From: Clostridia bacterium
Lineage (GTDB): Bacteria; Bacillota; Peptococcia; DRI-13; SV3-B141
Reading direction: 5' to 3'
Length of the DNA: 41,300 nt
Assembly (NCBI GenBank): GCA_018433015.1
Contig: JAHDSB010000002.1
Span: 1 to 41,300, forward strand
The translations under genes were made by a program, and so were the position numbers. The stretch's first letter is position 1, and every line of letters starts with the position of its first letter. Of the stretch, positions 2,160-25,021 are shown in pieces. Below the pieces are notes generated by a model, which ran no database searches, had not been told where the DNA came from, and saw only the letters and a program-made list of their open reading frames with translations.

Positions 2160-3797
2160 ATGAAAAGAAATATTAGTAGGACTAGATATTATGGGGAAAT
2201 TGATTTACAAGAATTAATTAATATTTTTATTAGTCGGAAGAGATTTATAATTTTTGTTACTTTTTCATTCATACTTTTAGCAGCAATTATATCTTTTTAT
2301 CTTTTATTACCGGTATATGAAAGTCAAACTTCTTTGTTGGTTCTATATGGAGATACAAAGAGGGATACTACAGGATACGAAGCTGGAGACTTAAAATCCA
2401 TAATAACTAACATATCTAAGTTACCTGATTTAACTATCAATACATATGTACAACAAATAAAAGACCCTGTACTTCTAAGTCAAGTGATTGCTAAATTAGA
2501 TTTAACAAAACAGGGCTATACAATTGAAAAATTAAGGGACAAAATTGAAGTCCAGGCTATAAAAGATACTAATATTATAGAAATAAAAGTTAGAGATACA
2601 AATCCAGATTTAGCTGTTAACATTGCAAAAAATATTAGCAATCTTTTATTAGCTTCCATTTCTAGAAGTACTGAGGAAAAAATGAATAAAGTAGTAACCT
2701 TTTTAAGTGAACAAGTAGATTCAATAAGCACAGAATTAGAAGCAGAAAGAGCTAGATTAGCTACTTTACAAGGCTTGTCAAACAGAGTCAGCCAGGCCCA
2801 AGATGTTTCCCGGAAAGTAGCTGAATTGGAGAAAATGCAGTCTCTATTATTAGAAAAAATTATAGAAGCCGAGATAGCTAAGTCTGTAAATCTAGGGGAT
2901 AAAAGTTTTCAGATAATTTCACCCACCATACTCTTAGAAAAGCCTGTAAAACCAAACAAAGCTTTAAATATTGGCTTAGCTGGTTTAGCAGGATTATTAG
3001 CTTCTTTTGCTGTAGTTGTTGTGCAAAATAGTACTAATAAAAAGATAAAAACAAAGGAAGACGTAGAGAAATATTTACAGTACCCAATTTTGGGGGTTAT
3101 ACCTAAATTTAAAAATAAACGGGGAAAAGATAAGTTGCCGATAAGTTGTTCCTGGCCAAAATCTGTGGAGGCAGAAGCATTTAGAATTCTACGTACAAAT
3201 TTACAGTTTATATCCTCTGCAAAAGCTATAAAATCTTTAGTAATGACAAGCACAGCTTCAGGTGAAGGAAAAAGTACTATGATAGCTAACATTGGGGTTA
3301 TTTTAGCTAGAGCGGGGGAAAATGTTTTAATTGTTGACTCTGATTTAAGATCGCCAGTGCAACATAAAATATTTTCTTTAAATAACGAAAGGGGGTTATC
3401 AAATATTTTGGCAGAAAACTTACCTCCTTGGTTATATATTAATGAAACAAATATACCGGGTGTTCATTTGTTACCTGCAGGTCCCATATCGCCTAATCCC
3501 GCAGAATTACTGGCCGCAGAAGGAATGAACAGCTTAATTGAAAGTTTGACACAACATTTTGATTATGTGCTTTTTGATTCACCCCCTATTTTAGCAGTTA
3601 CTGACGCCGTGTTACTTTCTGCTAAGGTGGATGGAGTATGTATAGTTATTAAAGCTGGAATTACAAGAGTTGACAAAGTTAAAGAAGGTTTTGATAACTT
3701 AAAATGCGCCAAAGCTCAGATCCTTGGTGTAGTTTTAAATAGTGTAGAGAGAGGTAAAAGTGACTATTATTATTATGATTATTATGGAGGTCATTAA
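2160..3797 (+). CDS. Wzc-type chain-length determinant / BY-kinase (tyrosine autokinase)
   Basis: Single-chain fusion of a Wzz-type co-polymerase and a bacterial tyrosine kinase, which controls polysaccharide length and export. Of 545 aa, residues about 29-50 form the first membrane helix. A periplasmic Wzz region with coiled-coil character follows, and the second helix is near 270-290. The kinase has Walker A ASGEGKST (about 366-373), Walker A' VLIVDSDLRSP and Walker B YVLFDSPP. A terminal tyrosine cluster (Y536-539 and Y541-542) is the usual autophosphorylation tail. In many Firmicutes the two halves are separate (CpsC/CpsD); here they are fused. Its TAA stop overlaps the next ATG by one base. 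The PHP-phosphatase domain encoded at 10957 is the likely antagonist. Confidence 0.93.
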   Translation: MKRNISRTRYYGEIDLQELINIFISRKRFIIFVTFSFILLAAIISFYLLLPVYESQTSLLVLYGDTKRDTTGYEAGDLKSIITNISKLPDLTINTYVQQIKDPVLLSQVIAKLDLTKQGYTIEKLRDKIEVQAIKDTNIIEIKVRDTNPDLAVNIAKNISNLLLASISRSTEEKMNKVVTFLSEQVDSISTELEAERARLATLQGLSNRVSQAQDVSRKVAELEKMQSLLLEKIIEAEIAKSVNLGDKSFQIISPTILLEKPVKPNKALNIGLAGLAGLLASFAVVVVQNSTNKKIKTKEDVEKYLQYPILGVIPKFKNKRGKDKLPISCSWPKSVEAEAFRILRTNLQFISSAKAIKSLVMTSTASGEGKSTMIANIGVILARAGENVLIVDSDLRSPVQHKIFSLNNERGLSNILAENLPPWLYINETNIPGVHLLPAGPISPNPAELLAAEGMNSLIESLTQHFDYVLFDSPPILAVTDAVLLSAKVDGVCIVIKAGITRVDKVKEGFDNLKCAKAQILGVVLNSVERGKSDYYYYDYYGGH

Positions 3798-7793: not shown

Positions 7794-7808
7794 ACGATGG
7801 TGATAGTG

Positions 7809-8840
7809 ATGAACCTTGATTTATCTTTTTTTTATCCAAACGGTACCACGGTATATGTGCTACCATCTCTTGCTAAACCACGTTTGGTCATACCAAAAAC
7901 TACCTTGGGCTGGAGATGGAAATATAGTGACTTATATCATGCATTTCGGTGGCAGGGGCGGGTTTATCGGCAATATATTAGAGCTGTGAGTCTATTGGGT
8001 ATGGGAAAATATCAAGTGGTATCTGATGATTATTGTCCTCTTGTGGACTTTATTAAGGATGTAATGCCCCAAGCATCTATTTCGGTAGTTAAAGTAGGGC
8101 CCATGGTACCGACCCAAAAAGCAACGGCACAACTGGTTAATAAAAAGGGTGAAATTGTTGGTTACTTAAAATATGGAATAAAGTCAGCTGCGCAAAAAAG
8201 AATAAAATGGGAACATCACGTTCTTTCTCAATTACCTTCCGACCTAGGACCTGAACCTCTCAAAATAGAGCAGGTAGGTGAGGGTACAGCCCTCCTACTT
8301 TCACCCCTGCCGGGGAAATGTATCAGAGCATCTTCTTGGCCTCCCTCTGGTTTGAGCTGGCATTTGCAAAGAATGATACTTCCTCGTTCTTACTCTATTG
8401 ATAAGCATCCTTATATTTGTATTTTGAAAAGTAAGGCACAGCTGGATATTAATCCTTGGCTAAAGAAGTTAGCAAATAATTTATGGCCTGTTAGTATTCA
8501 ACATGGTGACCTTACTCCCTGGAATGTGTTACGAACAAATCAAGGAGTTTATTATCTAATAGATTGGGAATATGGTGTTTTAGAGGGGTTCCCTTATATG
8601 GATAGCATTTATTATATGATGGCAGTAGCCTTTTGGATTCAGCGACATAGTCCTGCTAGAGCCTTTGAGGATATAAAAGTTTTTCTTACTAAAGAGAAGC
8701 AACTTAAACAGGAAGAAGCTGAAGCAATCATATGCCTTACTGCCTATCATTGTTATATCCAGGATGAGGAAGATGGTATATTGTTAGATGCACCTATCCA
8801 GCAATGGCGTCAGTGCATTTGGAGTATAAAACAGCTATAA
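7809..8840 (+). CDS. APH/choline-kinase-fold phosphotransferase
   Basis: Protein-kinase-like fold small-molecule phosphotransferase, 343 aa from this start. The catalytic loop HGDLTPWNVL (near residue 230, HxDxxxxN) and the metal-binding IDWEYG segment are both present, so it should be active. The substrate is unknown: aminoglycoside, choline, sugar or an amino-sugar of the repeat unit are all possible. An earlier in-frame ATG at 7797 lacks an SD; ATG 7809 has GGTGA at 7799-7803, five bases upstream. It lies in a polysaccharide operon directly after a deacetylase, so modification of a glycan is more likely than drug resistance (inference). Confidence 0.78.
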   Translation: MNLDLSFFYPNGTTVYVLPSLAKPRLVIPKTTLGWRWKYSDLYHAFRWQGRVYRQYIRAVSLLGMGKYQVVSDDYCPLVDFIKDVMPQASISVVKVGPMVPTQKATAQLVNKKGEIVGYLKYGIKSAAQKRIKWEHHVLSQLPSDLGPEPLKIEQVGEGTALLLSPLPGKCIRASSWPPSGLSWHLQRMILPRSYSIDKHPYICILKSKAQLDINPWLKKLANNLWPVSIQHGDLTPWNVLRTNQGVYYLIDWEYGVLEGFPYMDSIYYMMAVAFWIQRHSPARAFEDIKVFLTKEKQLKQEEAEAIICLTAYHCYIQDEEDGILLDAPIQQWRQCIWSIKQL

Positions 8841-8855: not shown

Positions 8856-10001
8856 ATGAGGAACATTTTCATCATCGGGTCGAAAGGAATTCCTGCTCGT
8901 TATGGGGGTTTTGAAACCTTCGTCGAAAATTTAGTTAAAAATATGGAGCACCAGGAAGATTTATTTTTTCATGTATCCTGTTTGGGTACTACAGAGAAAG
9001 TTGATTATAAAAATGTCAGGTGTTTTCCCGTTAGAGTACCCAATATAGGCAGTGCCAAAGCAATCCTTTATGACTTTTTCAGTTTGCGATTATGTATAAA
9101 ACATATTAAAGCTAATGGGTTCACCAACAGTATCATATATATTCTAGCCTGTCGCATAGGACCCTTGCTGCCTGCATACCTGAGAGCTCTAAAATTATTG
9201 GGAGTGCAAGTATTTGTTAATCCCGATGGTCACGAGTGGAAGAGGGCTAAATGGAATAGTTTTATTAAATGGTACTGGAAGCTATCGGAACGCTATATGG
9301 TAAGTAAAGCCGATTTGGTAATTTGTGATTCCTTAGTTATTGAGGATTATATTAAAAAAGAATATAAAAAATTTTCACCTGCAACAACTTATATCTCTTA
9401 TGGAGCTTATCTTTCTACTGTAGAAAATTCCGCTGAATATTTAAAATGGTTGCATGAAAAACAAAGTAGGGAATATGGCTATTATTTAGTGGTGGGCCGG
9501 TTTGTACCGGAAAATAATTATGAATATATAATTAAAGAGTTTATGCAATCCCCTAGCAAGAAGAAGTTAATATTTATCACCAATTTTGAAAAAAATAAGT
9601 TTTATCACAGATTATATAAAAACACACATTTTTACAAGGACGAGCGCATAATATTTGGTGGTACCATATATGACCCGGGTTTACTAAGAAGAATTAGACA
9701 AGGGGCTTATGGATACATTCACGGTCATGAAGTGGGAGGGACTAATCCTTCTCTTTTGGAAGCTTTGGCCTCCACCAGATTAAATATGGTATTGGATGTA
9801 GATTTCAATCGGGAAGTGGCAGATAACGGGGCATTGTATTTCAGCAAAGAGGTAGGTTCTTTGGCTTCTTTAATTGAAAGGGCTGAGAAATTTTCCGCGG
9901 AAGAGCTTGAGGATTATGAAAACAGAAGCCGGGAGACCATCAGGACTAAATTTTCCTGGGAATTAATATGTCATAAATATACAAAATTATTTAAAAATTA
10001 G
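8856..10001 (+). CDS. DUF1972 glycosyltransferase (rhamnosyltransferase-like)
   Basis: GT-B glycosyltransferase of 381 aa. It opens with IIGSKGIPARYGGFETFVE, the hallmark of the DUF1972 domain found in Cps2T-like beta-1,4-rhamnosyltransferases. The C-terminal half carries the donor-site region GYIHGHEVGGTNPSLLEALA. Because rmlB, rmlA, rmlC and rmlD are all in the locus, dTDP-rhamnose is a plausible donor, but specificity is inferred. An AGGGAGG SD lies upstream of ATG 8856. It is the second of two separate glycosyltransferases here, besides the initiating transferase domain encoded at 10957. Confidence 0.88.
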   Translation: MRNIFIIGSKGIPARYGGFETFVENLVKNMEHQEDLFFHVSCLGTTEKVDYKNVRCFPVRVPNIGSAKAILYDFFSLRLCIKHIKANGFTNSIIYILACRIGPLLPAYLRALKLLGVQVFVNPDGHEWKRAKWNSFIKWYWKLSERYMVSKADLVICDSLVIEDYIKKEYKKFSPATTYISYGAYLSTVENSAEYLKWLHEKQSREYGYYLVVGRFVPENNYEYIIKEFMQSPSKKKLIFITNFEKNKFYHRLYKNTHFYKDERIIFGGTIYDPGLLRRIRQGAYGYIHGHEVGGTNPSLLEALASTRLNMVLDVDFNREVADNGALYFSKEVGSLASLIERAEKFSAEELEDYENRSRETIRTKFSWELICHKYTKLFKN

Positions 10002-10112: not shown

Positions 10113-10967
10113 GTGAAAATTTTAGTAACGGGTGCCGGAGGACAATTAGGTACGGAGGTATGTACATATTTACGTTCCCTGAAATACATGGTAGTGGGTG
10201 CCACCAGAAGGGAGCTGGACATTACAAAATTTAAAAAGGTACATACTTTTATTATGCAAGAAAAACCGGATTATGTTATAAATTGTGCAGCTTTAACTGA
10301 TGTAGCCGGTTGTGAAAAGAAAATTAGGGATGCATACTTGATTAATGCGGTAGGTCCGCAAAATCTGGCTTCTGTTTGCATGGATAGTAATGCAGTTCTC
10401 GTCCATATTTCATCTGATTATGTGTTTGATGGAAAAAAATCTACTCCTTATCTGGAATTTGATCATGTTAATCCTTTAAGTATCTATGGAAAATCAAAGT
10501 TGGCCGGTGAACAGATGATTCAAGTCCTTTGCCCTCGTCATTATATAATCCGAACATCATGGCTTTATGGATTAGATGGCAAAAATTTTGTTAAAAAAGT
10601 GTTGGATTTGGCTAGGGAAAATAAAGAAATAAGAATTGTTAATGACCAAAGGGGTACTCCTACCTATACGAAAGATTTAGCTGCAGTATTAGAGTATCTC
10701 ATAAATACTGGAGCTTATGGGACTTACCATGTATCTAATAGTGGGGAATGTACTTGGTATGAATTTGCTTCGAAAATAGTAGAGCTTTTCCAGTTAGAAA
10801 CCACGGTTAAACCTATAAGTTCTTCAGAACTGGATGATTATGTAAAAAGACCCGTGTATTCTGTACTAAGAAATTATCTATTAGAGCTTACTGGTGATAA
10901 AATCATGAGACCTTGGTTTGAGGCTTTGCAAGATTATGTGGGGGAGTGGAAGAAGCTTGATAGATAA
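10113..10967 (+). CDS. rmlD: dTDP-4-dehydrorhamnose reductase
   Basis: Final step of dTDP-L-rhamnose synthesis: NAD(P)H-dependent reduction of dTDP-6-deoxy-L-lyxo-4-hexulose. It is an extended short-chain dehydrogenase of 284 aa. The Rossmann motif VTGAGGQLG is at residues 4-12, the SSDYVFDG segment near 102-109, and the catalytic Y-x3-K (YGKSK) near 127-131. GTG 10113 follows GACGGAGGT. It is separated from rmlB-rmlA-rmlC by the phosphatase-transferase and flippase genes, but all four enzymes of the pathway are in this window. Its 3' end overlaps the next gene by 11 bases if that gene starts at TTG 10957. Confidence 0.93.
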   Translation: MKILVTGAGGQLGTEVCTYLRSLKYMVVGATRRELDITKFKKVHTFIMQEKPDYVINCAALTDVAGCEKKIRDAYLINAVGPQNLASVCMDSNAVLVHISSDYVFDGKKSTPYLEFDHVNPLSIYGKSKLAGEQMIQVLCPRHYIIRTSWLYGLDGKNFVKKVLDLARENKEIRIVNDQRGTPTYTKDLAAVLEYLINTGAYGTYHVSNSGECTWYEFASKIVELFQLETTVKPISSSELDDYVKRPVYSVLRNYLLELTGDKIMRPWFEALQDYVGEWKKLDR

Positions 10968-12258
10968 TCTTAATGGAAGGCAAATAGTAGATTATCATTG
11001 TCACATCTTACCACATTTAGATGATGGTCCGAAGGAGTGGGAAGAAGCTCTCAAATTAGCCGAAAGGGCAAAAAATATAGGCATAGGAGAAATCATTGCC
11101 ACACCTCATTATGAGGAAGAGGTATATGAGAATACGCGTGAGAAAATCTTAGAGAAAGTAGAGAAATTTAATAATTTCTTGAAGAAAAGGGACGTTAACA
11201 TAATCATATATCCTGGTGCAGAAATTATGATGAGTCCTTCTACGCCTCAACTTATTCAGGAAAATAAGGTGATGACCATAAAAGATGAGGGAGAATCAGT
11301 TTTGCTGGAACTACCTTGCCATATCTTTCCCTTATGGGGGGAAACTGTTCTCCTAGAAATAATGAATTTAGGTGTTTCACCTATTTTGGCTCATCCGGAA
11401 AGGTATGAGTGGTTAGATATGGAATGGGCCCACAGGATGTATAGGAAAGGAGTCCGTTTCCAGATTAATTGGAGTAGTTTAACGGGAAAGTATGGAGCTA
11501 GAGCAAAGCGAAAAGCCCAGAATTTTTATACCCAAGGTTTGGCAAGTTATTGGGGTTCTGATGCCCATTCAGCTCAGGAGATGAAGGCTTTAGGTACTAT
11601 AAAGCAAGGAAAGGTATCTGTGAAAAGTAGGTTTACCTTAAATATAAATGGCTTTTGTAAAAGGGCCTTTGATCTAATAATAGGGACTATAAGTTTAGTG
11701 TTCGTTTCACCGCTACTTATAATCATTGTTATAGCCATCAGAGCTGACTCTAAAGGACCTGCTTTATTTAGCCAGGAAAGAATAGGACGTAATTGTGTTA
11801 ATTATAAGTGCTACAAATTTAGAACTATGTATCTAGGAAATGAAAAAATATTACAAGCTTATCTTACCCAAAACCCTAAGGTTATGGAGCAGTGGGAGAA
11901 ATACGCTAAATTAAAAGTAAATGATCCTCGCATAACTAGAACAGGAAGAATTCTGCGAAAATTCAGCCTTGATGAGCTTCCTCAACTTCTTAATGTTTTA
12001 AAAGGAGAAATGAGTCTAGTTGGTCCTCGACCTTATTTACCTAGGGAGAAGGATAAGATGGGAGAATATGTTTTTGATATTACCAAGACAAAGCCCGGTA
12101 TTACAGGACTTTGGCAGGTTAAAGGCCGTAATGATATAGATTTTCAGGGGCGGCTTAAGTTAGATGCTTGGTATGTGGTAAATTGGTCTTTCTGGCTGGA
12201 TATTACTATTTTGTTACGCACCGTGGAAGTAGTGATTATCGGCAAGGGAGCATATTGA
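10957..12258 (+). CDS. Fusion: CpsB/YwqE-like PHP phosphotyrosine phosphatase + initiating sugar-phosphate transferase
   Basis: Two-domain protein of 433 aa. Residues 1-215 form a PHP-fold phosphatase with its metal ligands: DYHCHILPHLDDG, ATPHY, GAE, LAHPERY and SDAHS. CpsB/YwqE members dephosphorylate BY-kinases such as the Wzc-type protein encoded at 2160. Residues about 230-433 are a polyprenyl-phosphate sugar-1-phosphate transferase with one hydrophobic helix (RAFDLIIGTISLVFVSPLLI), KFRTM, DELPQLLNVLKGEMSLVGPRP and KPGITGLWQV. It adds the first sugar to undecaprenyl phosphate. TTG 10957 has GGGGGAG and GGAAG just upstream; longer in-frame starts at 10918 and 10936 would deepen the rmlD overlap. 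Fusion of the two activities in one chain is unusual, since they are normally separate genes. Confidence 0.88.
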   Translation: MIDNLNGRQIVDYHCHILPHLDDGPKEWEEALKLAERAKNIGIGEIIATPHYEEEVYENTREKILEKVEKFNNFLKKRDVNIIIYPGAEIMMSPSTPQLIQENKVMTIKDEGESVLLELPCHIFPLWGETVLLEIMNLGVSPILAHPERYEWLDMEWAHRMYRKGVRFQINWSSLTGKYGARAKRKAQNFYTQGLASYWGSDAHSAQEMKALGTIKQGKVSVKSRFTLNINGFCKRAFDLIIGTISLVFVSPLLIIIVIAIRADSKGPALFSQERIGRNCVNYKCYKFRTMYLGNEKILQAYLTQNPKVMEQWEKYAKLKVNDPRITRTGRILRKFSLDELPQLLNVLKGEMSLVGPRPYLPREKDKMGEYVFDITKTKPGITGLWQVKGRNDIDFQGRLKLDAWYVVNWSFWLDITILLRTVEVVIIGKGAY

Positions 12259-12282: not shown

Positions 12283-13833
12283 TTGAAAAAGTTTAACTCT
12301 TTTAGAGCAGTAGTGGTGGTTATATTTTTAACAGGGTTTGCTAAGGTGCTGGGTTTTTTCAGAGAAATGGTGATAGCAAGTAACTTTGGTACAGGATGGG
12401 AAATAGATACTTTTTTAATGGCTTACATTATCCCGTGTTTTGTGGCAGAAATTATTTCCGATGCTTTGGGGACATCTATTATACCTGTTCTGACGGAAGT
12501 AAAAAGTAAGTTAGGTTCTAGTGCGGTGCTTGTTTTACTAAATAAAATATTATTTGCAGTAACCTTCTTAAGCCTGCTTATAATTCTGGGATGTTTTTAT
12601 AGTGCTCATCCTGTTATTGATCTGATAGCTCCGGGATTTACCCCCAGCTCAAGGTTGCTGACCGTTAAGTTGTATAGGATTTTACTGCCCATGTTGTTCT
12701 TTTTAAATGTTGTTTCCATATTTGTAGGTTTTCTCCAGACTAATCTTCGTTTTACTGAACCGGCTATAGTTACAGTGCCCATGAATCTATGTATTCTGGG
12801 GTGCATCTGTTTGTTTTCTAGGTCGCAGGGCATTTATGCTTTAGCTGTAGGCTATACCGTTGGTACAGCTGCTCAGTTATTAGCCGTTATCCCCCCTGCT
12901 TGGAAACAGGGCTATAGGATGACCATAAGTAAACCTTATTTTGATTCTAATCTAAGAAAAGTAGGATATTTATCTATCCCTGTATTGATAGGGCTGGTAG
13001 TAGAAAAGATAAATCCCCTTGTTATTCGTATGTTGGCTTCGGGATTGGAAGAGGGAAGTATTTCTGCCCTCCATTACGCCCGTATGTTGAAAGTGTTTCC
13101 ACAAGGTGTTTTTCTCATGGCCTTGGCCACAGTGGCTTATCCCACCTTATCTGCAAATGTAGTAGATCAGGACATGGATAAGTTCAGGGCTTCTTTGCAG
13201 AGATGGCTGCGCCTATTACTTATGTTCGCGTTGCCTATGACGGTGGGCCTGATTGTACTTAGGGAGCCTGTGGTGCGGTTAGTTTATCAGCGAGGAAGTT
13301 TTGATGCCACTTCAACGGTCCTTACGTGCATTGCTTTACAATATTATGCTTTGGGCCTTCCCGCCGTGGGAATATGGGAACTATTGAGCAGGGCTTTTTA
13401 TTCCTTAAATGACACGCGTTCACCTATGATAAGCGGGATAATTTCGGTATTTATCAATATTTTTTTGGCTATAGTCTTAGTTAAGGCTATGGGTCACGGG
13501 GGATTAGCCTTAGCATCTTCTATCTCTATAACCTTTACTGTTCTTTTATTAATATATGGTTTGAGGAAAAAAGGCTTGTATATTATCCAGACTCTCCAAC
13601 TAGTAACTTTTACTAAATTTCTGACGGCTTCTTGTTTAATGGGGCTGGGGGTTAAAAATTCATATGTTTATCTAGGTATGAAGTTAAATACTTTTTCTTA
13701 TTGTGCGGAAGTAAGCTGTTTAGTTTCTATTCTGATAGGGGTTTTGCTTTATTTTTCTCTACTGTATTGTTTTTTCTTACCCCATTCTAATAAATATATA
13801 TGTGGGAAAAACCCTTTCTTTAAAAGGAAATGA
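12283..13833 (+). CDS. MurJ/MviN-family lipid-linked oligosaccharide flippase
   Basis: Polytopic membrane protein of 516 aa, with about 14 predicted helices from hydrophobicity. It has MurJ-family features: GFAKVLGFFREMVIASNFG at the N-terminus, a following D-T-F-L-M-A-Y stretch, and the RLVYQRGSFDATST motif. MurJ flips lipid II. Placed inside this operon, between the initiating transferase and the rhamnose genes, it more likely flips the polymer repeat unit, standing in for a Wzx protein; no other flippase is present here. TTG 12283 lies 6 bases after GGCGGGG. Function as a locus-specific flippase is inferred from position. Confidence 0.85.
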   Translation: MKKFNSFRAVVVVIFLTGFAKVLGFFREMVIASNFGTGWEIDTFLMAYIIPCFVAEIISDALGTSIIPVLTEVKSKLGSSAVLVLLNKILFAVTFLSLLIILGCFYSAHPVIDLIAPGFTPSSRLLTVKLYRILLPMLFFLNVVSIFVGFLQTNLRFTEPAIVTVPMNLCILGCICLFSRSQGIYALAVGYTVGTAAQLLAVIPPAWKQGYRMTISKPYFDSNLRKVGYLSIPVLIGLVVEKINPLVIRMLASGLEEGSISALHYARMLKVFPQGVFLMALATVAYPTLSANVVDQDMDKFRASLQRWLRLLLMFALPMTVGLIVLREPVVRLVYQRGSFDATSTVLTCIALQYYALGLPAVGIWELLSRAFYSLNDTRSPMISGIISVFINIFLAIVLVKAMGHGGLALASSISITFTVLLLIYGLRKKGLYIIQTLQLVTFTKFLTASCLMGLGVKNSYVYLGMKLNTFSYCAEVSCLVSILIGVLLYFSLLYCFFLPHSNKYICGKNPFFKRK

Positions 13834-13853: not shown

Positions 13854-14831
13854 GTGAAGATTCTTATTACTGGCGGTGCCGGTTTTATTGGGAGCAATTT
13901 CATCCATTATGTCTTAAAGAGAAACCCGGATTGGTATATTGTTAACCTGGATAAGCTCACTTATGCCGGAAATTTAGACAACTTGCGGGATATTGAACAT
14001 TCGGTACAGCATGAATTTATACGAGGAAGTATCGAAAATAGAGAATTGGTTAATTATCTGTTCTCTTTGCATAAATTTGACGTTGTGATAAATTTTGCTG
14101 CTGAATCCCATGTGGACCGCAGTATTAAGGATGCAACAGTTTTTATAGAGACCAACATTAAAGGTACACAGATTTTGTTAGATGCTTGCAGGGAACATGG
14201 GATAGATAAATTTTTACAAGTATCCACAGATGAGGTCTATGGTTCTGTAGGGCCTCAGGAAGAGGCTTTTACGGAAGAAAATCATTTACAACCTAATAGC
14301 CCTTATTCAGCCAGTAAAGCAGCAGCTGATCTGTTAGTTAGGTCTTATCATAATACTTACGGTCTACCTACAGTTATTACTAGATGCTCTAATAATTATG
14401 GGCCTTATCAATTTCCGGAAAAATTAATACCTTTGATGATAATTAATGCCCTGGAAGATAAAACTCTACCCGTATATGGTGATGGAAAAAATATTAGGGA
14501 TTGGATTCATGTGGAAGATCATTGTCGTGCTTTGGAACTAGTAGTGTTAAAAGGTGTTAGTGGTGAAGCATATAATGTCGGTGCAGATTGTCAACTGAAA
14601 AATATAGAGGTAGTAAAAATGATTTTGCATGTTCTTAAGAAACCGGAATCTCTAATAACGTTTGTAATTGACAGAGCGGGACATGATGCCAGGTATGCAG
14701 TCGATGCTAGTAAAATTAAAGCACAGTTGGGGTGGTTACCTCACTATAACTTTAGGGATTATCTGCCTAAGCTTGTTCAATGGTATAGAGAGAATGGAAA
14801 GTGGTGGAGAAAAATAAAGCAGGGGGGATAA
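13854..14831 (+). CDS. rmlB: dTDP-glucose 4,6-dehydratase
   Basis: Converts dTDP-glucose to dTDP-4-dehydro-6-deoxyglucose. It is an extended SDR of 325 aa. The [13 protein letters not shown]-binding motif is at residues 7-16, [10 protein letters not shown] near 81-90, STDEVYG near 122-128 and catalytic YSASK near 149-153. The usual [17 protein letters not shown] signature is intact. GTG 13854 follows a GAGGTG SD. It forms a tight rmlB-rmlA-rmlC run: the stop is 2 bases before the preferred rmlA start. Confidence 0.95.
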
Positions 14832-14833
14832 GG

Positions 14834-15730
14834 GTGGCTGAATGTACAAGAAAAGGAATCATCTTAGCAGGAGGTTCCGGAACCAGGTTGTATCCATTAA
14901 CTCAGGTTATCAGTAAACAATTAATGCCCGTCTATGACAAACCTATGATTTATTATCCCCTCAGTACTTTAATGTTAGCCGGTATCAAGGATATATTGAT
15001 AATTACCACACCTCAAGATCAAACTCTCTTTCAAGGGCAATTAAAAGATGGTCAGCAATGGGGAATACAAATTTCTTATGCGATTCAGTCTAAACCCGAA
15101 GGAATTGCCCAGGCTTTACTCCTAGCTGAGGAATTTTTGGCCGGGCAAAAATCGGTATTAATCTTAGGGGATAATATCTTTTATGGCCAGGGGCTTACGG
15201 AAAAGTTACATCAGGCTATGATACAGCAAGAAGGAGCTACAGTATTTGCATATTGGGTAAAGGAACCGCAAAATTATGGCGTGGTAGAGTTTGATGAAGC
15301 AGGAAGACCTGTTACTTTAATAGAAAAACCAACTTGTCGTCCTTTTTCTAATTATGCTGTGACAGGACTTTATTTTTACGATGAGCAAGTGGTTACTTGG
15401 GCTAAAAAGCTTAATCCATCGGCTCGAGGAGAACTGGAGATAACGGATCTTAATAGAATTTACTTAAATAAGGGGCAGTTAAAGGTAATAAAATTGGGAA
15501 GGGGTTATGCTTGGCTGGACACAGGTACTCCTAGGTCCCTAATGAATGCAGCTTCCTTTGTACAGACAATAGAAGAAAGGCAGGGGCTAAAAATTGCCAG
15601 TCCGGAAGAAATCGCCTTTCGCTTGGGCTTTATTTCTAAAGAAAAATTAAAGTTGACGGCAGAATCCCTAAAAAAGAACGGATATGGTTCATATCTGTTA
15701 AGTCTTATTGGAGAGGAGGGAGCTATATGA
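14834..15730 (+). CDS. rmlA: Glucose-1-phosphate thymidylyltransferase
   Basis: First committed step of dTDP-rhamnose synthesis, making dTDP-glucose from dTTP and glucose-1-phosphate. The protein is 298 aa from this start, the usual family length. It shows [20 protein letters not shown] and [19 protein letters not shown], then LGDNIFYG and the sugar-site GLYFYD segment. A longer reading from GTG 14801 would overlap rmlB. GTG 14834 is preferred because AGGGGGG (14821-14827) is 6 bases upstream. The stop overlaps rmlC by four bases (ATGA). Confidence 0.94.
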
Positions 15731-16299
15731 AAATATCAGAAACCAAGCTTGCGGGAGTAAAGTTAATCGAACCGGATATCTTTGGCGATGAACGGGGCTT
15801 CTTTTTGGAAATATGGAATAAAAAGCGTTACGAATCCTTAGGAATACAGGAACAGTTTGTACAAGATAATTTATCTTTATCAAGACAAGGTGTCTTACGG
15901 GGACTACATTTTCAATATCCTTGTGGTCAAGGAAAGCTGGTCACTGTGCTGTGGGGAGAAGTTTTTGATGTGGCCGTGGATATCAGGGTAGGCTCGCCTA
16001 GCTTCTGTCAGTGGGTAGGAGTCAAACTTTCTGCAAAGAATAAAGCTCAACTTTTTATTCCGGAGGGATTCGCCCACGGGTTTTGTGTTTTAAGTGAATA
16101 TGCTCTCTTTGCTTATAAATGTTCAGAATTTTATAACCCCACTACTGAAGGGGGCATCTGTTGGAATGATCCTCAAATAGCTATTGCCTGGCCGATAAAA
16201 GAGCCACTGCTGTCAGAAAAGGATAAAAAATATCCCAAGCTTAGTCAAATACCATTACAAGATCTTCCTTTTTTCGAAGATGTCAAGGTAACAAGGTAG
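15727..16299 (+). CDS. rmlC: dTDP-4-dehydrorhamnose 3,5-epimerase
   Basis: Cupin-fold epimerase of 190 aa that inverts C3 and C5 of dTDP-4-dehydro-6-deoxyglucose. It contains [11 protein letters not shown], the catalytic-His region [17 protein letters not shown] and [13 protein letters not shown]. The start ATG 15727 overlaps the rmlA stop and uses the GGAGAGGAGGG stretch inside rmlA as its SD, giving coupled translation. It is the last gene of the polysaccharide locus. Confidence 0.95.
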
Positions 16300-16753: not shown

Positions 16754-17650
16754 ATGAAAAAAAAATCTGTAGTAATAGTAGGTTTCGGAAATATAGGGCA
16801 TTACGCTTATGAAAGTGTAACAGCAGAAAAGGATATGGAATTAAAAGGTATTGTAGAAACGGCTCCTAACATGCCTGACAATGTAGATGGTATACCCATA
16901 GTTTCAGATGTTAGTTCCTTAGAAAAACCCGATGTAGCTATTTTGTGTGTACCAAGTCGCTTAGTAAAAAAGATTGTACCCTTATATCTGGAAAAAGGCA
17001 TTTGTACAGTTGATCCCTATGATATTCATGGTGAAACCATGTTGGAGCTGCGGAAAGAATTTGATGATATTGGGAAGAAAAATAATGCCGCATCTATTAT
17101 AGCGGCAGGTTGGGATCCCGGTTCTGATTCCATGATTAGAGGGATTATGAAATTGATGGTGCCTAGGGGAGTAACTCATACCAATTTTGGCCCGGGAATG
17201 AGTATGGGCCATTCCGTAGTAGCTAAAGCTGTAGAGGGAGTAGAGGATGCTGTTAGCTTGACTATACCTGTTGGTACAGGATTGCATCGCCGTTTGGTGT
17301 ATGTAAAGCTTAAACCGGGTGCTGATTTAGAAAAAGTAGAAGCTCAAATAAAACAAGATAATTACTTCAGAAATGACGAGACCTATGTTTATGCTATTGA
17401 TGATATAGAAGATGTTAAAGATATGGGGCATGGTGTACATATAGAACATAAAGGGAAAGCCGGTATAACCCACAATCAGATAATTGATTACGTGCATCAT
17501 ATCAACAATCCTGCTGTTACGGCTCAGGTCTTAACTTCGGCTGCTCGAGCTGTTACGAAACAAAAACCCGGTTGTTACACGCTCTTAGAAGTTCCTATTG
17601 CTGATTATTTAAATATGGATTTAGAAACTTTAGTAAGGAAAATGGTTTAA
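16754..17650 (+). CDS. ddh: meso-Diaminopimelate D-dehydrogenase (type II-like)
   Basis: NADP-dependent oxidoreductase of 298 aa, reversibly converting meso-DAP to L-2-amino-6-oxopimelate plus ammonia. The Rossmann motif VGFGNIGHY is at residues 9-17. The substrate domain has AAGWDPGSDSMIRG, NFGPGMSMGHSVVAKAVEGV and, near the C-terminus, KPGCYTLLEVPIADYL. The length and the motif set (GTGLHRR, ATHNQ-like ITHNQ) fit the Symbiobacterium-type subgroup, some members of which accept other D-amino acids. An AAGGAGG SD precedes ATG 16754. It can serve lysine/cell-wall synthesis, but the sigma-54 promoter and the transporter and amidohydrolase neighbours suggest catabolic use here (inference). Confidence 0.88.
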   Translation: MKKKSVVIVGFGNIGHYAYESVTAEKDMELKGIVETAPNMPDNVDGIPIVSDVSSLEKPDVAILCVPSRLVKKIVPLYLEKGICTVDPYDIHGETMLELRKEFDDIGKKNNAASIIAAGWDPGSDSMIRGIMKLMVPRGVTHTNFGPGMSMGHSVVAKAVEGVEDAVSLTIPVGTGLHRRLVYVKLKPGADLEKVEAQIKQDNYFRNDETYVYAIDDIEDVKDMGHGVHIEHKGKAGITHNQIIDYVHHINNPAVTAQVLTSAARAVTKQKPGCYTLLEVPIADYLNMDLETLVRKMV

Positions 17651-17768
17651 ACTAAGTCGGCAATATAGGAATAAATAGCTAGTAGGAAAAGAGGTGATGA
17701 GCTAAGAACAATAAAACTTAGGTTAAACTAACAAAACTAAATACATCAGCGTAGAAGGGAGTAATAAT

Positions 17769-19190
17769 ATGGAAAATTTCGGATTATTATCAATACTACC
17801 ACCTGTAATTTCAATTGTCCTAGCCTTAGTTACAAAGGATGTAATTACGTCATTATTTTTAGGTTGTTTTTCAGCTTTTACTATTCTAGCAGGGGGTAAT
17901 ATCTTAGTTGGTATAAGTGATACACTGATGTCCTTTATTAAGGTATTTGAAAGCAATGGCAATACCATTTGTATAGGAATCACAGTTTTGCTCGGCGGAT
18001 TACTGTATGTCACAGAAAAATCAGGAGGAGTACAAGGTTTTGCAAAATTCTTTACTTCTAAAAGATCATTTATTAAAACAAGAAGAGGTGCAGAAATATT
18101 CTCTTGGTTTATCGGTATAATAGTATTTACTTCAGGTACGGTTAGCGCTTTAATTACAGGAACTGTGGCTAGACCTTTAACAGATGCTTTTAAAGTACCT
18201 CACGAAAAATTAGCGTACATTGTCCACTCCACTACTTCTCCGGTTTGTGCTCTCTTACCCTTGAGTGCTTGGGGTGCTTATATGATCGGCTTAATTCAGG
18301 CTCAAGGTATTGATAATCCTGCTGCTGTAATGGTTAAGTCAATCCCCTTGAATTTCTACAGTATAATCGCCCTATTTTTAGTGTTATTCTTTGCCATTTC
18401 CGGTAAAGATTACGGTCCTATGGTGAAAGCTGAACAAAGAGTTAAAGAGACAGGGCTCCTTGATGCACCTAAAGGCACTATGGACCAAGAAGAACAGGCT
18501 CAAGAAGCGGCAGCAGCCAGTGAGATTCAACCTACTACTATGTGGAATCTTGTTTTACCTATTATTGCAATGACAGTAATGATTATTGCCGGTTTATTGA
18601 TTACAGGTAAAGGTAATATTCTGGAGGGAGCCGGCATGACAGCTATTTTATGGGGTAATACCTTTGCTATATTTGTCGCTTTAATTATGTACACTTCCCA
18701 AAAAATCATGACTTATAAAGAATTTATTAATATCATGTTTGAAGGGGCAGGTAAATTACTACCAATTGCTTTTATTCTTATTTTTGCTTGGTCATTAGGC
18801 GGTGCAGTTAAACAACTAGGCACTGGTGTTTTTTTGGCTGAAACTCTTTCCGGTATCATTACACCCGCTTTTTTACCTCCATTAATTTTTATTATCAGTT
18901 GTATTATTTCTTTTGCTACGGGCAGTTCTTGGGGGACTATGGCTGTTATGTGTCCTATTGCTTTACCTATGGCTATTGCTAGTGGTGCTAATATTGCTCT
19001 TTGTTTCGGTGCTATTGTAGGGGGAGCTCTTTTCGGTGATCATTCCTCACCTATATCAGATAGTACTATAATGTCCTGCTTTACTACCCGGTGTGACATT
19101 ATGGATCATGTTAGGACTCAATTACCTTACACTCTGACGGCAGCAGCAGGCGCCATGGGGATATACTTAATTTTAGGTTTTGTATTTTAA
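17769..19190 (+). CDS. NhaC-family Na+/H+ antiporter-like transporter
   Basis: Integral membrane protein of 473 aa with about 11-12 hydrophobic segments, belonging to the NhaC (Na_H_antiporter) family. Family marks seen are FTSGTVSALITGTVARPL, TSPVCALLPLSAWGAYM and, near the end, GALFGDHSSPISDSTIMS. Some relatives exchange organic substrates with Na+ or H+ (malate/lactate, tyrosine, lysine), so an amino-acid or DAP-like substrate is possible given the ddh and M20 genes on either side. An AGAAGGGAG SD precedes ATG 17769. It lies 118 bases after ddh with no promoter or terminator that I can see between them. Confidence 0.85.
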   Translation: MENFGLLSILPPVISIVLALVTKDVITSLFLGCFSAFTILAGGNILVGISDTLMSFIKVFESNGNTICIGITVLLGGLLYVTEKSGGVQGFAKFFTSKRSFIKTRRGAEIFSWFIGIIVFTSGTVSALITGTVARPLTDAFKVPHEKLAYIVHSTTSPVCALLPLSAWGAYMIGLIQAQGIDNPAAVMVKSIPLNFYSIIALFLVLFFAISGKDYGPMVKAEQRVKETGLLDAPKGTMDQEEQAQEAAAASEIQPTTMWNLVLPIIAMTVMIIAGLLITGKGNILEGAGMTAILWGNTFAIFVALIMYTSQKIMTYKEFINIMFEGAGKLLPIAFILIFAWSLGGAVKQLGTGVFLAETLSGIITPAFLPPLIFIISCIISFATGSSWGTMAVMCPIALPMAIASGANIALCFGAIVGGALFGDHSSPISDSTIMSCFTTRCDIMDHVRTQLPYTLTAAAGAMGIYLILGFVF

Positions 19191-19251
19191 TTTGCTTTTT
19201 AAAATTTGTGATATATTTGTTTTATATTTAAATATATATAGCAAAACAAAA

Positions 19252-19300
19252 ATATGGGTAACTTCAAATAAGTAGTGATTACTTCAGAAGTTACCCATAT
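19252..19300 (+). repeat. 14-bp perfect inverted repeat with nested stem
   Basis: ATATGGGTAACTTC (19252-19265) is exactly complementary to GAAGTTACCCATAT (19287-19300). The intervening bases contain a second stem, AAGTA (19270-19274) with TACTT (19280-19284). No T-run follows, so it is not a typical rho-independent terminator. It ends about 30 bases before the M20 amidohydrolase ATG. It could be an mRNA-stability or attenuation element, or a small mobile-repeat remnant. Confidence 0.8.
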
Positions 19301-19329
19301 CTCATAAGTGGTGACGGGAGGGAAAACCT

Positions 19330-20514
19330 ATGGAATGTAAAGATTTCTTATCAGAAGCACAGAAGATGAGACAAAAACTTGTAGATATTAGAAGAGATAT
19401 ACATATGCATCCTGAACTTGATTTTGCTGTACATAGGACCGTGGGAAAGGTAGAAGAAATATTAGCATCTCTAGGGATTGAGACCAAAAGGGTTGCCGGC
19501 ACAGGTTTGGTTGGTTTATTAAAGGGAAGCGGTCAGGGCAAGACTGTAGGATTAAGGGCGGATATGGATGCTCTACCTATAAATGATGAAAAGCAAGTGG
19601 AGTATGCTTCGCAAGTGCCTAATAAAATGCATGCTTGTGGACATGATGTACATACTACGGTACTTTTAGGCGCAGCCCTACTTTTGAGTGCAGCCAGGGA
19701 TACATTTTCGGGTAACGTAAAGTTTCTTTTCCAACCTGCCGAAGAAACTGATGGAGGAGCTTTACCCATGATAGAGGAAGGGGTCATGGAAAATCCCCGT
19801 GTTGATGGAGTCTTTGGACTTCATACTTGCCCTGATTTAGAAGTAGGTAAAATTGGAATAAGTTATGGCAAAGCATATGCCGCATCGGATATGTTTGATG
19901 TTAGGATTTTTGGACAAGGAAGCCATGGAGCTGCTCCCCACCAGGGTGTTGATGCTATAATGGCAGGTGTTCAGGTTGTTAATGCTTTACAAACCTTTGT
20001 GAGTCGTAATGTAGACCCAGTGGATTCTGCCGTAGTAACAATCGGAAAATTTCAGGGAGGATATCAGAGAAACGTTATCGCTGATAAGGTAGAACTTTCC
20101 GGGATTATTCGCACACTGGATCCGGGTACCCGTGAATTGGCACGGGAAAGGGTAACAAAAATTATTAATAATGTAACGGAGGCTATGGGAGCACGTGCTG
20201 AAATAGATTTTATGCCCAGTTATCCCTCGCTCATCAATGATAGTGGCATGGTGGACTTAGCTAAAGAAAATGCGGAAGCCTTGCTGGGTAAAGAAAATGT
20301 AGTATTAGTAGAAAAACCCACCATGGGAGTAGAAGATTGTGCTTACTTTTTACAAAAAGCTCCCGGTGCCTTTCTGCAGTTAGGAGTACGAAATAAAGAA
20401 AAGGGTATTGTCTATCCTTTACATAATAGCCTTTACGATGTAGATGAGGATTGTCTGCCTATTGCAGCTGCATTAACGGCATGCAATGCAGTACGTTTTT
20501 TACAGATGAAATAA
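19330..20514 (+). CDS. M20 family amidohydrolase (N-acyl-amino-acid / N-acetyl-DAP deacetylase-like)
   Basis: Dinuclear-metal amidohydrolase of 394 aa, M20D type. RRDIHMHPELDF is at residues 21-32, GLRADMDALP at 74-83 and metal ligands HACGHDVH at 101-108. The PAEETDGGALPMIEEG glutamates and a lid-domain FGQGSHGAAPHQGVDA segment follow. Relatives hydrolyse N-acyl amino acids, hippurate, indole-amino-acid conjugates or N-acetyl-L,L-DAP; the exact substrate cannot be told. Its place after ddh and an NhaC-type transporter points to release of an amino acid from an imported or wall-derived N-acyl compound. A GACGGGAGG SD precedes ATG 19330. Confidence 0.88.
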   Translation: MECKDFLSEAQKMRQKLVDIRRDIHMHPELDFAVHRTVGKVEEILASLGIETKRVAGTGLVGLLKGSGQGKTVGLRADMDALPINDEKQVEYASQVPNKMHACGHDVHTTVLLGAALLLSAARDTFSGNVKFLFQPAEETDGGALPMIEEGVMENPRVDGVFGLHTCPDLEVGKIGISYGKAYAASDMFDVRIFGQGSHGAAPHQGVDAIMAGVQVVNALQTFVSRNVDPVDSAVVTIGKFQGGYQRNVIADKVELSGIIRTLDPGTRELARERVTKIINNVTEAMGARAEIDFMPSYPSLINDSGMVDLAKENAEALLGKENVVLVEKPTMGVEDCAYFLQKAPGAFLQLGVRNKEKGIVYPLHNSLYDVDEDCLPIAAALTACNAVRFLQMK

Positions 20515-20523
20515 CTAATAGGG

Positions 20524-20544
20524 GCTGCCTGAGGGGCAGCTTTT
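20524..20544 (+). terminator. Intrinsic terminator after the M20 gene
   Basis: GCTGCC (20524-20529), loop TGAGG, GGCAGC (20535-20540), then TTTT. It ends the ddh-nhaC-M20 transcript. Confidence 0.75.
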
Positions 20545-20657
20545 CTCTAATAGGGATGTTTAATTATTGTATTTAAATTAATAATATATAAAAAAGGAAA
20601 TATGAGTTATTTCGTCGAACTAAAACATATAATTTGATGAAAAAAGGAGCTCGCTTC

Positions 20658-20792
20658 ATGAATATACCGGCGGTAATGGTCTTTTTACTTATGTTACTGG
20701 TTATTCTAGTAGCAATAAACTATAAAAAATGGTGGCTCTTGCCTATAGTGATAGTTATATCGGCATTCCTTAGATTTTACGTATTATATTGA
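20658..20792 (+). CDS. Small hydrophobic membrane protein, 44 aa
   Basis: Short ORF with ATG 20658 placed 8 bases after a strong AAAAAGGAG SD, and followed immediately by a terminator. It encodes two hydrophobic stretches split by a basic-aromatic turn: MVFLLMLLVILVAINY, KKWW, then LLPIVIVISAFLRFYV. That predicts a two-helix hairpin in the membrane. I do not recognise a family. The combination of ribosome site, hydrophobic pattern and private terminator supports a real gene. Confidence 0.65.
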   Translation: MNIPAVMVFLLMLLVILVAINYKKWWLLPIVIVISAFLRFYVLY

Positions 20793-20794
20793 GG

Positions 20795-20821
20795 CCCGAG
20801 GTTAAATCCTCGGGTTTTTTT
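20795..20821 (+). terminator. Intrinsic terminator after the 44-aa ORF
   Basis: CCCGAGG (20795-20801), loop TTAAAT, CCTCGGG (20808-20814), followed by seven T. Strong rho-independent form. Confidence 0.92.
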
Positions 20822-20908
20822 GTTAAGCCAAATATTCTATTACTCATTAAAAAGAAACTAAATGTAAAAGCTATAAATATTAATGGAGTGATAGGGAATG
20901 AAATCAGC

Positions 20909-21385
20909 ATGAAAAAATGGAAACAGATTTTATTAAGCATTTTAATACCGGAAGCAGCAGGAATGATTAGTGGGCTGGTAGCTTTTCAAATTTTGGGTGG
21001 TAAATTTACAGGCTATAAGAAACCGTCTTTTACGCCTCCCGATTACGTTTTTGGACCTGCATGGACAGTACTCTACGCTTTAATGGGTATAGCCTCTTAC
21101 CGTGTATGGAAAATTAGGCAGCATGATCAAAAAAGAGCTAAAAAAGCCCTTAATTTCTATAGTGCACAGCTTTTTTTCAATTTCTTATGGTCTATTATAT
21201 TTTTTGGTTTAAGGTATAGGGGTCTAGCTTTTCTTGAGATATTAGTATTACTTATATTAATTGTGCAAACAACAGTGGAGTTTTTTAAGCTGGATAAAAT
21301 AGCGGGTTATTTGATGATTCCCTACTTTCTTTGGGTGTCCTTTGCAACAATACTAAATTATTCTATTTGGCAACTTAATAGATAA
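20909..21385 (+). CDS. TspO/MBR family protein
   Basis: Five-helix membrane protein of the tryptophan-rich sensory/translocator family, 158 aa from this start. The motif FTPPDYVFGPAWTVLYALMG (residues about 35-54) is the family signature with its conserved proline and tryptophan. Further aromatic helices include FFNFLWSIIFFGL and IPYFLWVSFATILNYSIW. Homologues bind porphyrins and other ligands and are tied to stress responses; the role in this organism is not evident. The frame is open upstream through the terminator, but ATG 20909 gives the family's normal length. An AGGGA SD lies at 20893-20897; GTG 20888 is an alternative. Confidence 0.87.
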   Translation: MKKWKQILLSILIPEAAGMISGLVAFQILGGKFTGYKKPSFTPPDYVFGPAWTVLYALMGIASYRVWKIRQHDQKRAKKALNFYSAQLFFNFLWSIIFFGLRYRGLAFLEILVLLILIVQTTVEFFKLDKIAGYLMIPYFLWVSFATILNYSIWQLNR

Positions 21386-21538
21386 AATACTAGATAGACA
21401 AATAACAATATATGTAAATATTGAGAAATATAAAAAATTCATATAATTGAAAATAATAAAGGAAAAAGCAGAATATTAGAGGAATTTAGTAGTATATACA
21501 AGATATAGAGAAAGAGATTTGGAGGGAGGAAGGGTACC

Positions 21539-23533
21539 ATGAAAAGTATAGGTTCTAAATTTGCTCTATACTTTACTGTCACTTTGTTAATTGTTTGTGC
21601 TGGTTTAAGTATTTTATCCTATCATAATGCTTCCCAGGCCCTTATTAAAAAGGTAGAAGAGGAACTACCGGAGAAAGCCGCTGATGCAGGCAAATATATA
21701 GAAGTCTGTATCGATAAGCGTTTTAAAGAATTACAAACCATAGGTGATTGGTACTTAACAAGCAACTTAACATGGGACGAACAAAAAAGGATGTTAGATT
21801 ATCAAGCAAAAAGATTAGGCTATTTGACTTTGGCAGTTGTAGATAACCAAGGGATTGCCCATTACACAGATGATACTACAACAGATTTATCGGAGCGAGA
21901 TTACATAAAAAATGCCTTAATGGGAGTACAAAATCTCTCAGATCCTTTGCTCAGCAAAGTGACCGATGAAACAGTTTTTATGGCTGCTGTTCCCTTAGTA
22001 AATACGGAAGGAGATATCAAAGGTGCACTAATTGGCCGTTTAGATGGAAGTATCTTGAGTACTATCGTAGAAAATATCTCTTATGGTGCTAGTGGTTATG
22101 CCTTTATGGTTGATGAAAAAGGTACCATAATCGCTCATCATGATAAAAATGTAGCTAAACAACAACTTAATGTTATAAAAGAGGCTAATAAAGATTCCCA
22201 ATACGCTTCTTTGGCTAGTGTAATAACAAAAATGATTAATAGAACAAAGGCTGCCGATAGATATTCGTATGCTGAGGAACAAAAGTATGCCGGTTATGCT
22301 CCCTTTGCTATCAACAATTGGTCTTTGGCGGTGAGTGCTCCCGTAGATGAAGTGTTGGCGGGACTTGTACCTCTGAAGAATTCGGCGGTAATAGCGAGTT
22401 TAATATTTATTGTAATCGGGATAATTATTGCTTTATTGGTAGGAAAACAAATGGCTGGTACTTTGAAAACGGTTACGACCCAAGCTGAAATTGTAGCTGA
22501 AGGAGATTTGAGCAAGGAAATTAACCAAAGGTTATTACAGCGTAAAGATGAAGTAGGTCGTCTAGCTCAGACGTTTGCTATTATGACAAGTTTTTTGCGC
22601 AAGACTACAGGGGAAATTAGTGCAGCAAGCCAAGAATTAGCTGCTTTTAGTGATAATTTAGCCCAAACTACCGAAAACGCTTCTGCCCAGATGCAAGAAA
22701 TAACTGCTACTACGGAAGAGCTATCTTCGGGTTTTGAAGAGGTTACTTCCTCAACTCAAAGTATTTCCGATTCCAGCCAGCACATGGCAGAAACAGCATC
22801 TGAACTGGAAAATAAAGCACGCAATGCCTTTGTACAAAGTGAAGAAATTGAAAAACGCGCTGTTAAGTTAAAACAGGAAACCGTTACATCACAAAGATCT
22901 GCCCAAGATATTGGTGCTAAATTCCAACAGCGTATGGTAGAAGCTATTGAAAAGGCTCAAATAGTAAAAGAAATTACTCAAATGACTGATCTAATATCAG
23001 ATATAGCTGAAGAAACTAATTTACTAGCTCTAAATGCTGCTATTGAAGCAGCAAGAGCCGGAGAGCAGGGTCGTGGTTTTGCCGTTGTAGCAGAAGAGGT
23101 TAGAAAACTGGCTGAAGAATCGGCTCACACGGTAGCAAAAATTCAGCAATTAACTAAAGACGTTCAAGTATCAATCAATGACTTAATCAAAGATACGAAG
23201 GGATTATTAGAATATCTTAACTCAAATGTAAAAAATGATTATGATAAATTTGTACAAGTTAGCGAGCAATATCAGGGTGACGCTAAGCTGTTTTCTACTA
23301 TGATGAGGGAAACATTAACTATGGCCAGTGAAGTACTAAGTAGTATTAATATGATAAAAACAGCTATTTCAGAAGCAGCTGTAGCTGTGGAGCAAAGTGC
23401 TTTAGGTTCGGCAGAAATCGTTAAAAGTACGGATATAACTAATAAGTCACTGATAGAGACAAATAAAACTTCTGCTAAATTGGCTGAAATGGCTGATAAT
23501 ATGGAAGAGTTAATAAATAGATTTAAATTATAG
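21539..23533 (+). CDS. Methyl-accepting chemotaxis protein with dCache sensor
   Basis: Chemoreceptor of 664 aa. The first membrane helix is near residues 7-29, followed by an extracellular double-Cache type sensor (about 35-275; [12 protein letters not shown] and [15 protein letters not shown] are seen). The second helix is near 280-303, with HAMP directly after. The cytoplasmic signalling hairpin contains [20 protein letters not shown] and [19 protein letters not shown]. dCache domains commonly bind amino acids or small carboxylates. It ends 28 bases before the sigma-54 activator gene, so it may be co-transcribed and share the same nutrient theme. A GGAGGGAGG SD precedes ATG 21539. No strong promoter was identified upstream. 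Confidence 0.93.
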
Positions 23534-23561
23534 CTAAGCTATTTATAGAAAGAGGTGTAGC

Positions 23562-24944
23562 ATGTCCTCCCCGATAAAGCGTTTATTGGGTAGCAATGTA
23601 CGCAGGATTTTAGATTTCTTAAATGATGGAATAATCATAACAGATGAGAAAGCTATAGTACATTATATTAACTCTGCTTATACCTTGTATTCTGGTTTGG
23701 AGTTTGAAGATATTGTGAATAAATATCTTCCCGAAGTTAGACCCGGTGCTATGTTACCCAAAGTATTGGAAGATCATAAACCTATCAGGAATTTCCCGAG
23801 AAAAGTAGGTAAGGTTGAATCGTATTGCGATTTTATACCTATTATTATTGAAGGAAAGTTGGTAGGAGGAATTGCTATAGTCAAAGATGTGGTAAGAATT
23901 AAAGATTTACTGCAACGGTTAGAGGAAAGTAAAGAAAAGATTGTTCAGCTAGATAATAGAGTAAAAGATTCTTTTAAAGCAAAATTTACTTTTAGCTCCA
24001 TAGTCGGAAGAGAAGGTGGATTAAAAAACACCATCACCATGTGTTATAAGGCTGCTCAAACAGATAGCCCTGTTTTATTGCTAGGGGAAAGTGGGACAGG
24101 CAAGGAAGTTTTAGCTCAATCTATTCATAATGCCAGTAAAAGAAAGGAATATCCTTTTGTCGATATTAATTGTGGGGCTCTTCCGGAGAATCTGTTGGAA
24201 AGCGAATTATTCGGTTATGAGGCAGGCGCTTTTACAGGGGCTAGGAAAAATGGAAAACTAGGTTTATTTGAAATCGCTAACGGAGGCACTATTTTCCTTG
24301 ATGAAATCACAGAAATGCCAATTAATTTACAAACCAAGCTATTAAGAGTTTTGCAGGAACAAAGGATTTTAAAAATAGGGAGCGAAAAAGCACTAGAGAT
24401 TAATGTCCGTGTAATTGCTGCAACTAATAAAAATGTCTTAGAACTAGTTAAGGAAAAAAGCTTTAGAGAAGACTTATATTTTAGATTAGCGGTCTTTGTT
24501 ATAAGCATTCCTGCTTTACGAGAAAGAAAAGAAGATATTACTCTGTTAGTACAAAAGTTTATTGAAGAACAGCAACGGAAGCAGAAACATGTCATTTTTG
24601 TAAATAGTGATGCTATGCATATCCTTAAATATTATGATTGGCCGGGTAATATCAGGGAGATAAAAAATATTATCGAATATGCATGTAATGTTACAGAAGA
24701 TTATACTATCAAACCAGAAGATATCCCTCAGAATATCTTAAAATTCAGTAGCGTAAAAAGATTAGTTGAACAAAAAAGGAATAACATGACTCTAGCACAG
24801 ATTGTGGGAGATGTAGAGAAAAAAATAATAAGGGACTATTTAACTTTATATGGAAATGATGTGCCAGCAAAGAAAAGAATTGCCCAAGAATTAAATATTT
24901 CTATTGCTACGTTATATAACAAGATAAAAAGATATAGTTTGTAA
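23562..24944 (+). CDS. Sigma-54-dependent activator with PAS sensor (AtoC/RocR-like)
   Basis: Enhancer-binding protein of 460 aa. A PAS domain covers residues about 13-115. The AAA+ core has Walker A GESGTGKE (175-182), the sigma-54-contacting GAFTGA loop (222-227) and Walker B GTIFLDEI (242-249). A Fis-type helix-turn-helix ends the protein (about 425-458, [12 protein letters not shown]). There is no receiver domain, so it should sense a ligand directly through PAS. It lies immediately upstream of a sigma-54 promoter and the thiolase/CoA-transferase/AtoE genes, its most likely target. The ddh promoter at 16685 is a candidate second target. An AGAGGTG SD precedes ATG 23562. Confidence 0.93.
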
Positions 24945-24970
24945 GAAGAGCTTGGTTAATTTATAAAGTA

Positions 24971-24984
24971 TTATAAATTTATAA
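24971..24984. promoter_or_regulatory. Palindrome upstream of atoB promoter
   Basis: TTATAAATTTATAA is a perfect 14-base palindrome about 165 bases upstream of the sigma-54 promoter. It could be an activator site, but AT-rich palindromes arise easily by chance. Confidence 0.3.
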
Positions 24985-25005
24985 GAAATTAGAAATGACA
25001 ATTCA

Positions 25006-25021
25006 TCACTTGCAACAGTGA
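25006..25021. promoter_or_regulatory. Candidate enhancer site (UAS) for the sigma-54 activator
   Basis: The dyad TCACT-N6-AGTGA (25006-25021) has the form of a Fis-type HTH dimer site. It lies about 120-130 bases upstream of the -24 element, a normal enhancer distance. Only one copy is seen, so the assignment is tentative. Confidence 0.45.

Follow-up and report, generated by a model that had tools for sequence, protein, structure and literature searches.

In Staphylococcus aureus, the kinase CapAB phosphorylates the phosphoglycosyl transferase (PGT) CapM at Tyr157 and thereby makes lipid I synthesis rise 4-fold; dephosphorylation of CapAB and of the proteins it phosphorylates is carried out by the PHP phosphatases CapC1/C2 (PMC6441080). 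The metal ligands and catalytic Arg139 of Cps4B are known from its structure paper, in which Arg206 is a secondary phosphate ligand whose mutant keeps 40% activity (PMC2777267). In WbaP, an N-terminal sensing domain detects UMP, and UMP inhibits the enzyme (PMC10942596). It is a long-standing question whether the BY-kinase and its phosphatase target the kinase tail alone or the initiating transferase too. A natural phosphatase-transferase fusion is independent evidence that both act at one place and, furthermore, allows the models to be told apart directly within a single protein, by means of phosphatase-dead and Tyr-to-Phe variants.

Here, we describe such a fusion in the window, the whole 41,300-nucleotide stretch of Clostridia bacterium DNA that was analyzed (Table 1). 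The locus is a rhamnose-type polysaccharide cluster with all genes on the same strand. It starts with genes for an LCP protein, a nucleotidyl transferase, a BY-kinase, Wzy, a GT4 glycosyltransferase, a PIG-L deacetylase, and an APH-like kinase, and continues with a Cps2T-type rhamnosyltransferase, rmlD, the fusion, a MurJ/Wzx-like flippase, rmlB, rmlA, and rmlC. An aminoglycoside-phosphotransferase-fold protein (7797-8840; weak PF01636 match) is located among the glycosyltransferases. Downstream, positions 16754-30585 hold a diaminopimelate-dehydrogenase-like gene, an NhaC-like transporter, an M20 peptidase, a thiolase, two CoA-transferase subunits, and a PLP enzyme, a gene content suggestive of amino-acid fermentation. 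This region also includes a TspO/MBR protein (20789-21385) with approximately 50 additional N-terminal residues ahead of its domain.

Table 1. Positions of the fusion gene, its parts, and neighboring genes in the window.
Feature	Position	Strand	Description and basis
cpsB-PGT fusion gene	10957..12258	+	433 aa, TTG start; ORF, Pfam, ribosome site
CpsB/CapC PHP phosphotyrosine phosphatase domain, residues 10-209	10984..11583	+	PF19567; YwqE 3qy6 and Cps4B 2wjd by sequence and fold
Low-confidence junction, residues 217-228	11605..11640	+	pLDDT <50, AlphaFold2; from ~220 aligns with WbaP-type inter-domain segment
Internal in-frame GTG	11620..11622	+	Possible relic of separate PGT start; -5.3 kcal/mol
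WbaP-type monotopic PGT core, residues 220-433	11614..12255	+	PF02397, TIGR03022 C-terminal half, WbaP/PglC structures
Wzz-Wzc type BY-kinase with tyrosine-rich tail (cognate kinase)	2160..3797	+	TIGR01007 3.8e-57; sequence
Cps2T-type beta-1,4-rhamnosyltransferase, likely second transferase	8856..10001	+	NF046071, 546 bits vs cut-off 500
rmlD	10113..10967	+	PF04321; 3' end shares 11 bases with fusion-gene start
MurJ/Wzx-like flippase	12283..13833	+	PF03023, TIGR01695
rmlB, rmlA, rmlC (dTDP-rhamnose synthesis)	13854..16299	+	TIGR01181, TIGR01207, TIGR01221

The gene product is a genuine two-domain enzyme by architecture, in which a whole CpsB/CapC phosphatase precedes a WbaP-type PGT catalytic core. 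In agreement with the original prediction that phosphatase and transferase share one frame, both Pfam domains were found in a single frame that stays open in the assembly from the TTG until the stop at 12258, and no stop codon lies between the domains. The ribosome site at this TTG (-9.1 kcal/mol) beats that of 98% of in-frame internal start codons. An AlphaFold2 model (mean pLDDT 90.7) shows two well-folded domains around one flexible joint, where the two homologies are approximately 8-10 residues apart; the pTM of 0.61 leaves the mutual orientation of the domains uncertain. Alternatively, given either a base error or internal initiation, the cell might make a separate CpsB and a small PGT and no fusion at all. 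The genome is a draft of 197 contigs, a stop could be masked by one changed base in codons 216-218, and GTG 11620, the sole in-frame start near the joint able to give a separate PGT, would begin a product (MKSRF...) resembling a same-order small PGT (G004; MKSSR...). We consider this improbable, however, since the ribosome site at that GTG is at chance level: its strength was matched by 18.7% of internal start codons sampled from the same genome and is weaker than approximately 95% of best gene starts, and the internal start was rejected accordingly. In addition, the sequence from about residue 220 onward carries on the large-PGT inter-domain segment and thus requires no start of its own, and a base error at exactly that spot is unlikely.

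The N-terminal half is predicted to be a phosphotyrosine phosphatase that is full length for its lineage and has kept its catalytic residues. Pfam CpsB_CapC (PF19567) matched residues 10-209 with an E value of 3.6e-42 (144.8 bits against a cut-off of 27), and Foldseek led from this half to YwqE and Cps4B. When the residues of the Cps4B structure paper (PMC2777267) were mapped by phmmer alignments to YwqE and Cps4B, every ligand of the three metals and the catalytic Arg were conserved (H14, H16, D23, H51, E89, E118, H146, R149, D202, and H204), bearing out the expectation that all PHP metal motifs are present. A counterpart of Cps4B Arg206 is not evident in the fusion; this position also varies or is missing in several sister CpsBs. 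Truncation of the domain, considered when the Pfam match ended at 201 of 234 profile positions, was rejected because stand-alone CpsBs of the same order are just as short, ending a few to approximately 15 residues past GSDAH.

The C-terminal half carries the PGT. Bac_transf (PF02397) matched residues 235-427 (E value 1.3e-64, 217.5 bits, well over its cut-off), this half matches PglC (8e37) and WbaP both by sequence and by Foldseek, the N-terminal membrane helix (227-264) has its Ser-Pro at 251-252, and the catalytic dyad Asp339-Glu340 is kept within LDELPQ. The protein is not itself a large WbaP-type PGT: TIGR03022 aligned only from profile position 233, scoring 330.8 bits, below the cut-off of 403, and the four-helix bundle and nucleotide-sensing domain are absent, residues 10-209 being the PHP domain. 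Its PGT core carries a second functional domain, joined N-terminally, which places the protein with the Bi-PGTs. The best PGT-half matches among those listed were nevertheless to large PGTs, at 62%, 60%, and 55-56% identity, and 13 of the top 15 lie within frames of 454-541 aa. Furthermore, the fusion segment VSVKSRFTLNINGFCKRAFD, upstream of the core, aligns as a continuation of the large-PGT inter-domain segment, exemplified by LLNVKNKLKSNLNKSIKRAFD in the large PGT of another locus (L166). These nearly all full-length WbaP-type relatives, together with the shared segment, indicate that the phosphatase has replaced the transmembrane bundle and sensing domain. The WbaP-type N-terminal part thus appears, from these alignments, to have been lost, with the phosphatase standing where it was, as first proposed for the N-terminal domain of WbaP/CpsE-type enzymes. 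An origin of this half from a small PGT was considered and dropped on the same two observations. In a PGT-core tree, which omits the 60-62% matches that were found afterwards, the fusion groups with support (96/87) in a set that mixes large and small forms and includes same-order genomes G001, G003, and G004 plus Desulfotruncus. In G003, the gene right after cpsB encodes a WbaP-type protein of 511 aa, and we infer from this layout that the fusion probably arose by an in-frame deletion joining neighboring cpsB and wbaP genes. Since G001 and G004 have small PGTs, it is also possible that the PGT lost its N-terminal part before the join with cpsB.

The architecture, which had been called unusual, proved to be so: no second fusion was found among the matches listed in samples of approximately 1,900 genomes. 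These comprised PF19567 samples of 46 class-level and 398 phylum-level genomes and further, partly overlapping samples of 399, 391, 338, and 335 genomes searched with the fusion protein, the 335-genome sample covering matches to an E value of 1e-40 only. A strongly diverged fusion could escape the listed matches. Similarly, the 80 CpsB loci that matched best in the GTDB species collection included none. A first contig scan with the fusion protein gave no relative, and the window's own family is not otherwise represented in the set of relatives. A literature search, with the PGT-architecture survey of O'Toole (2021) outside its scope, returned no earlier description of a CpsB-PGT fusion. Long PF19567 frames in six genomes (G344, G213, G244, G320, G136, and G404) were stop-to-stop artefacts: no PGT is in frame, and the additional stretch precedes the phosphatase, in several cases running out of register across the tail of the upstream kinase gene. 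Plasmid matches spanning both halves turned out to be pieces joined together; in the three records inspected (two from Lactiplantibacillus plantarum and one from Levilactobacillus brevis), the frames are separate. On two L. plantarum plasmids (L045 and L046), an unannotated cpsB lies between the kinase and a sugar transferase; in L046 its matches are split over two frames (2429-2710 and 2689-3270), and the phosphatase gene seems to have decayed on some plasmids. Two further polysaccharide clusters (L164 and L165) each have two PGT genes, one large WbaP-type and one diverged, with cpsB nearby.

Occurrence in one genome only also bears on whether the join has any regulatory meaning. Two working enzymes might simply share a chain after a deletion, gaining a fixed 1:1 dosage and no more, and an accidental join would be easy because cpsB and PGT genes adjoin in several Bacillota. 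We regard such a neutral, co-expression fusion as unlikely, given that the whole regulatory N-terminal part of the large PGT is absent from the chain and that the catalytic residues of both halves are all retained. Within its own genome, scored as 99% complete, the fusion is the only PF19567 protein and the only PF02397 protein; therefore, provided that the locus is functional, it must supply both activities.

The original prediction had also placed a Wzc-type BY-kinase in the same locus, and this kinase is present (Table 1), with Walker A, A', and B motifs and a YYYYDYY tail; it is the one BY-kinase of the genome above the TIGR01007 cut-off. Two LMW-PTP genes lie outside the locus, and their products could also act on the kinase. 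The kinase is one Wzz-Wzc chain with wzy directly after it; in four same-order genomes (L029, L030, L031, and L033), the Wzz and kinase genes are split, and cpsB is found at the end of the kinase gene or overlapping it. The fusion phosphatase is encoded approximately 7 kb from the kinase gene in this locus; in most sister genomes cpsB adjoins that gene. This sister arrangement, the tyrosine-rich tail, and the dephosphorylation of a Wzc kinase by Cps4B (PMC2777267) would all fit a phosphatase that serves the kinase tail as a free CpsB does, with the PGT core acting mainly as an anchor and the transferase unregulated by phosphorylation. We hold this reading to be possible but doubtful, however, since S. 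aureus CapM is directly targeted by kinase and phosphatase alike, and since losing the PGT's sensing domain would be an odd route to a mere anchor.

The best explanation, drawn from analogy with S. aureus and about as likely as not, is that this two-domain enzyme is a kinase-activated PGT reset by its own fused phosphatase. Through the membrane anchor of the PGT core, the phosphatase would stay membrane-bound next to the BY-kinase, which would phosphorylate Tyr406 and activate the PGT. The fused phosphatase would then strip the phosphate from Tyr406, in cis or in trans, and would also dephosphorylate the kinase tail, such that repeat-unit initiation would be reset after every activation and control of the first step would shift from nucleotide feedback to phosphotyrosine. 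Since phosphatase and initiating enzyme are one protein, the enzyme under control may itself carry the switch. Tyr406 aligns with CapM Tyr157; the CapM sequence used has 185 aa and tyrosines at 75 and 157, which fits the figures of PMC6441080. A tyrosine occupies this position in nearly all PGTs examined, and Tyr406 is therefore a needed condition for, and not proof of, phosphorylation. Against this mechanism, the fusion comes from a single genome, so there is no second fusion as a sign of selective retention; the distance to the kinase gene, the uncertain orientation of the domains, and the two LMW-PTP genes also count against it. A narrower version, in which a self-resetting transferase carries its own eraser and each kinase-driven activation of lipid-carrier loading is ended in cis as a timer replacing the UMP feedback of ordinary WbaP enzymes, is put forward only tentatively.

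Among related known systems is CapC/CapM with CapAB of S. aureus (PMC6441080), where a PHP phosphatase, a BY-kinase, and a monotopic PGT belong to one capsule pathway, the kinase activating and the phosphatase reversing, and the regulated Tyr position is present in the fusion. However, CapC and CapM are two separate proteins, whereas here one chain is formed and the core is of the WbaP type. CpsB, YwqE, and Cps4B (3qy6 and 2wjd) have their fold, metal ligands, and catalytic Arg in common with the fusion but are stand-alone and soluble, while the fusion chain runs on into a membrane enzyme. The large PGTs WbaP and CpsE (8t53; PMC10942596) share the core, which is up to 62% identical to Bacillota large PGTs with the inter-domain segment included, but differ in the four-helix bundle and UMP-sensing domain that the phosphatase replaces in the fusion. 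In Bi-PGTs (PMC10942596), likewise, a monotopic PGT core is preceded by an extra functional domain; the domain fused here, in contrast, is a signaling phosphatase of the same pathway.
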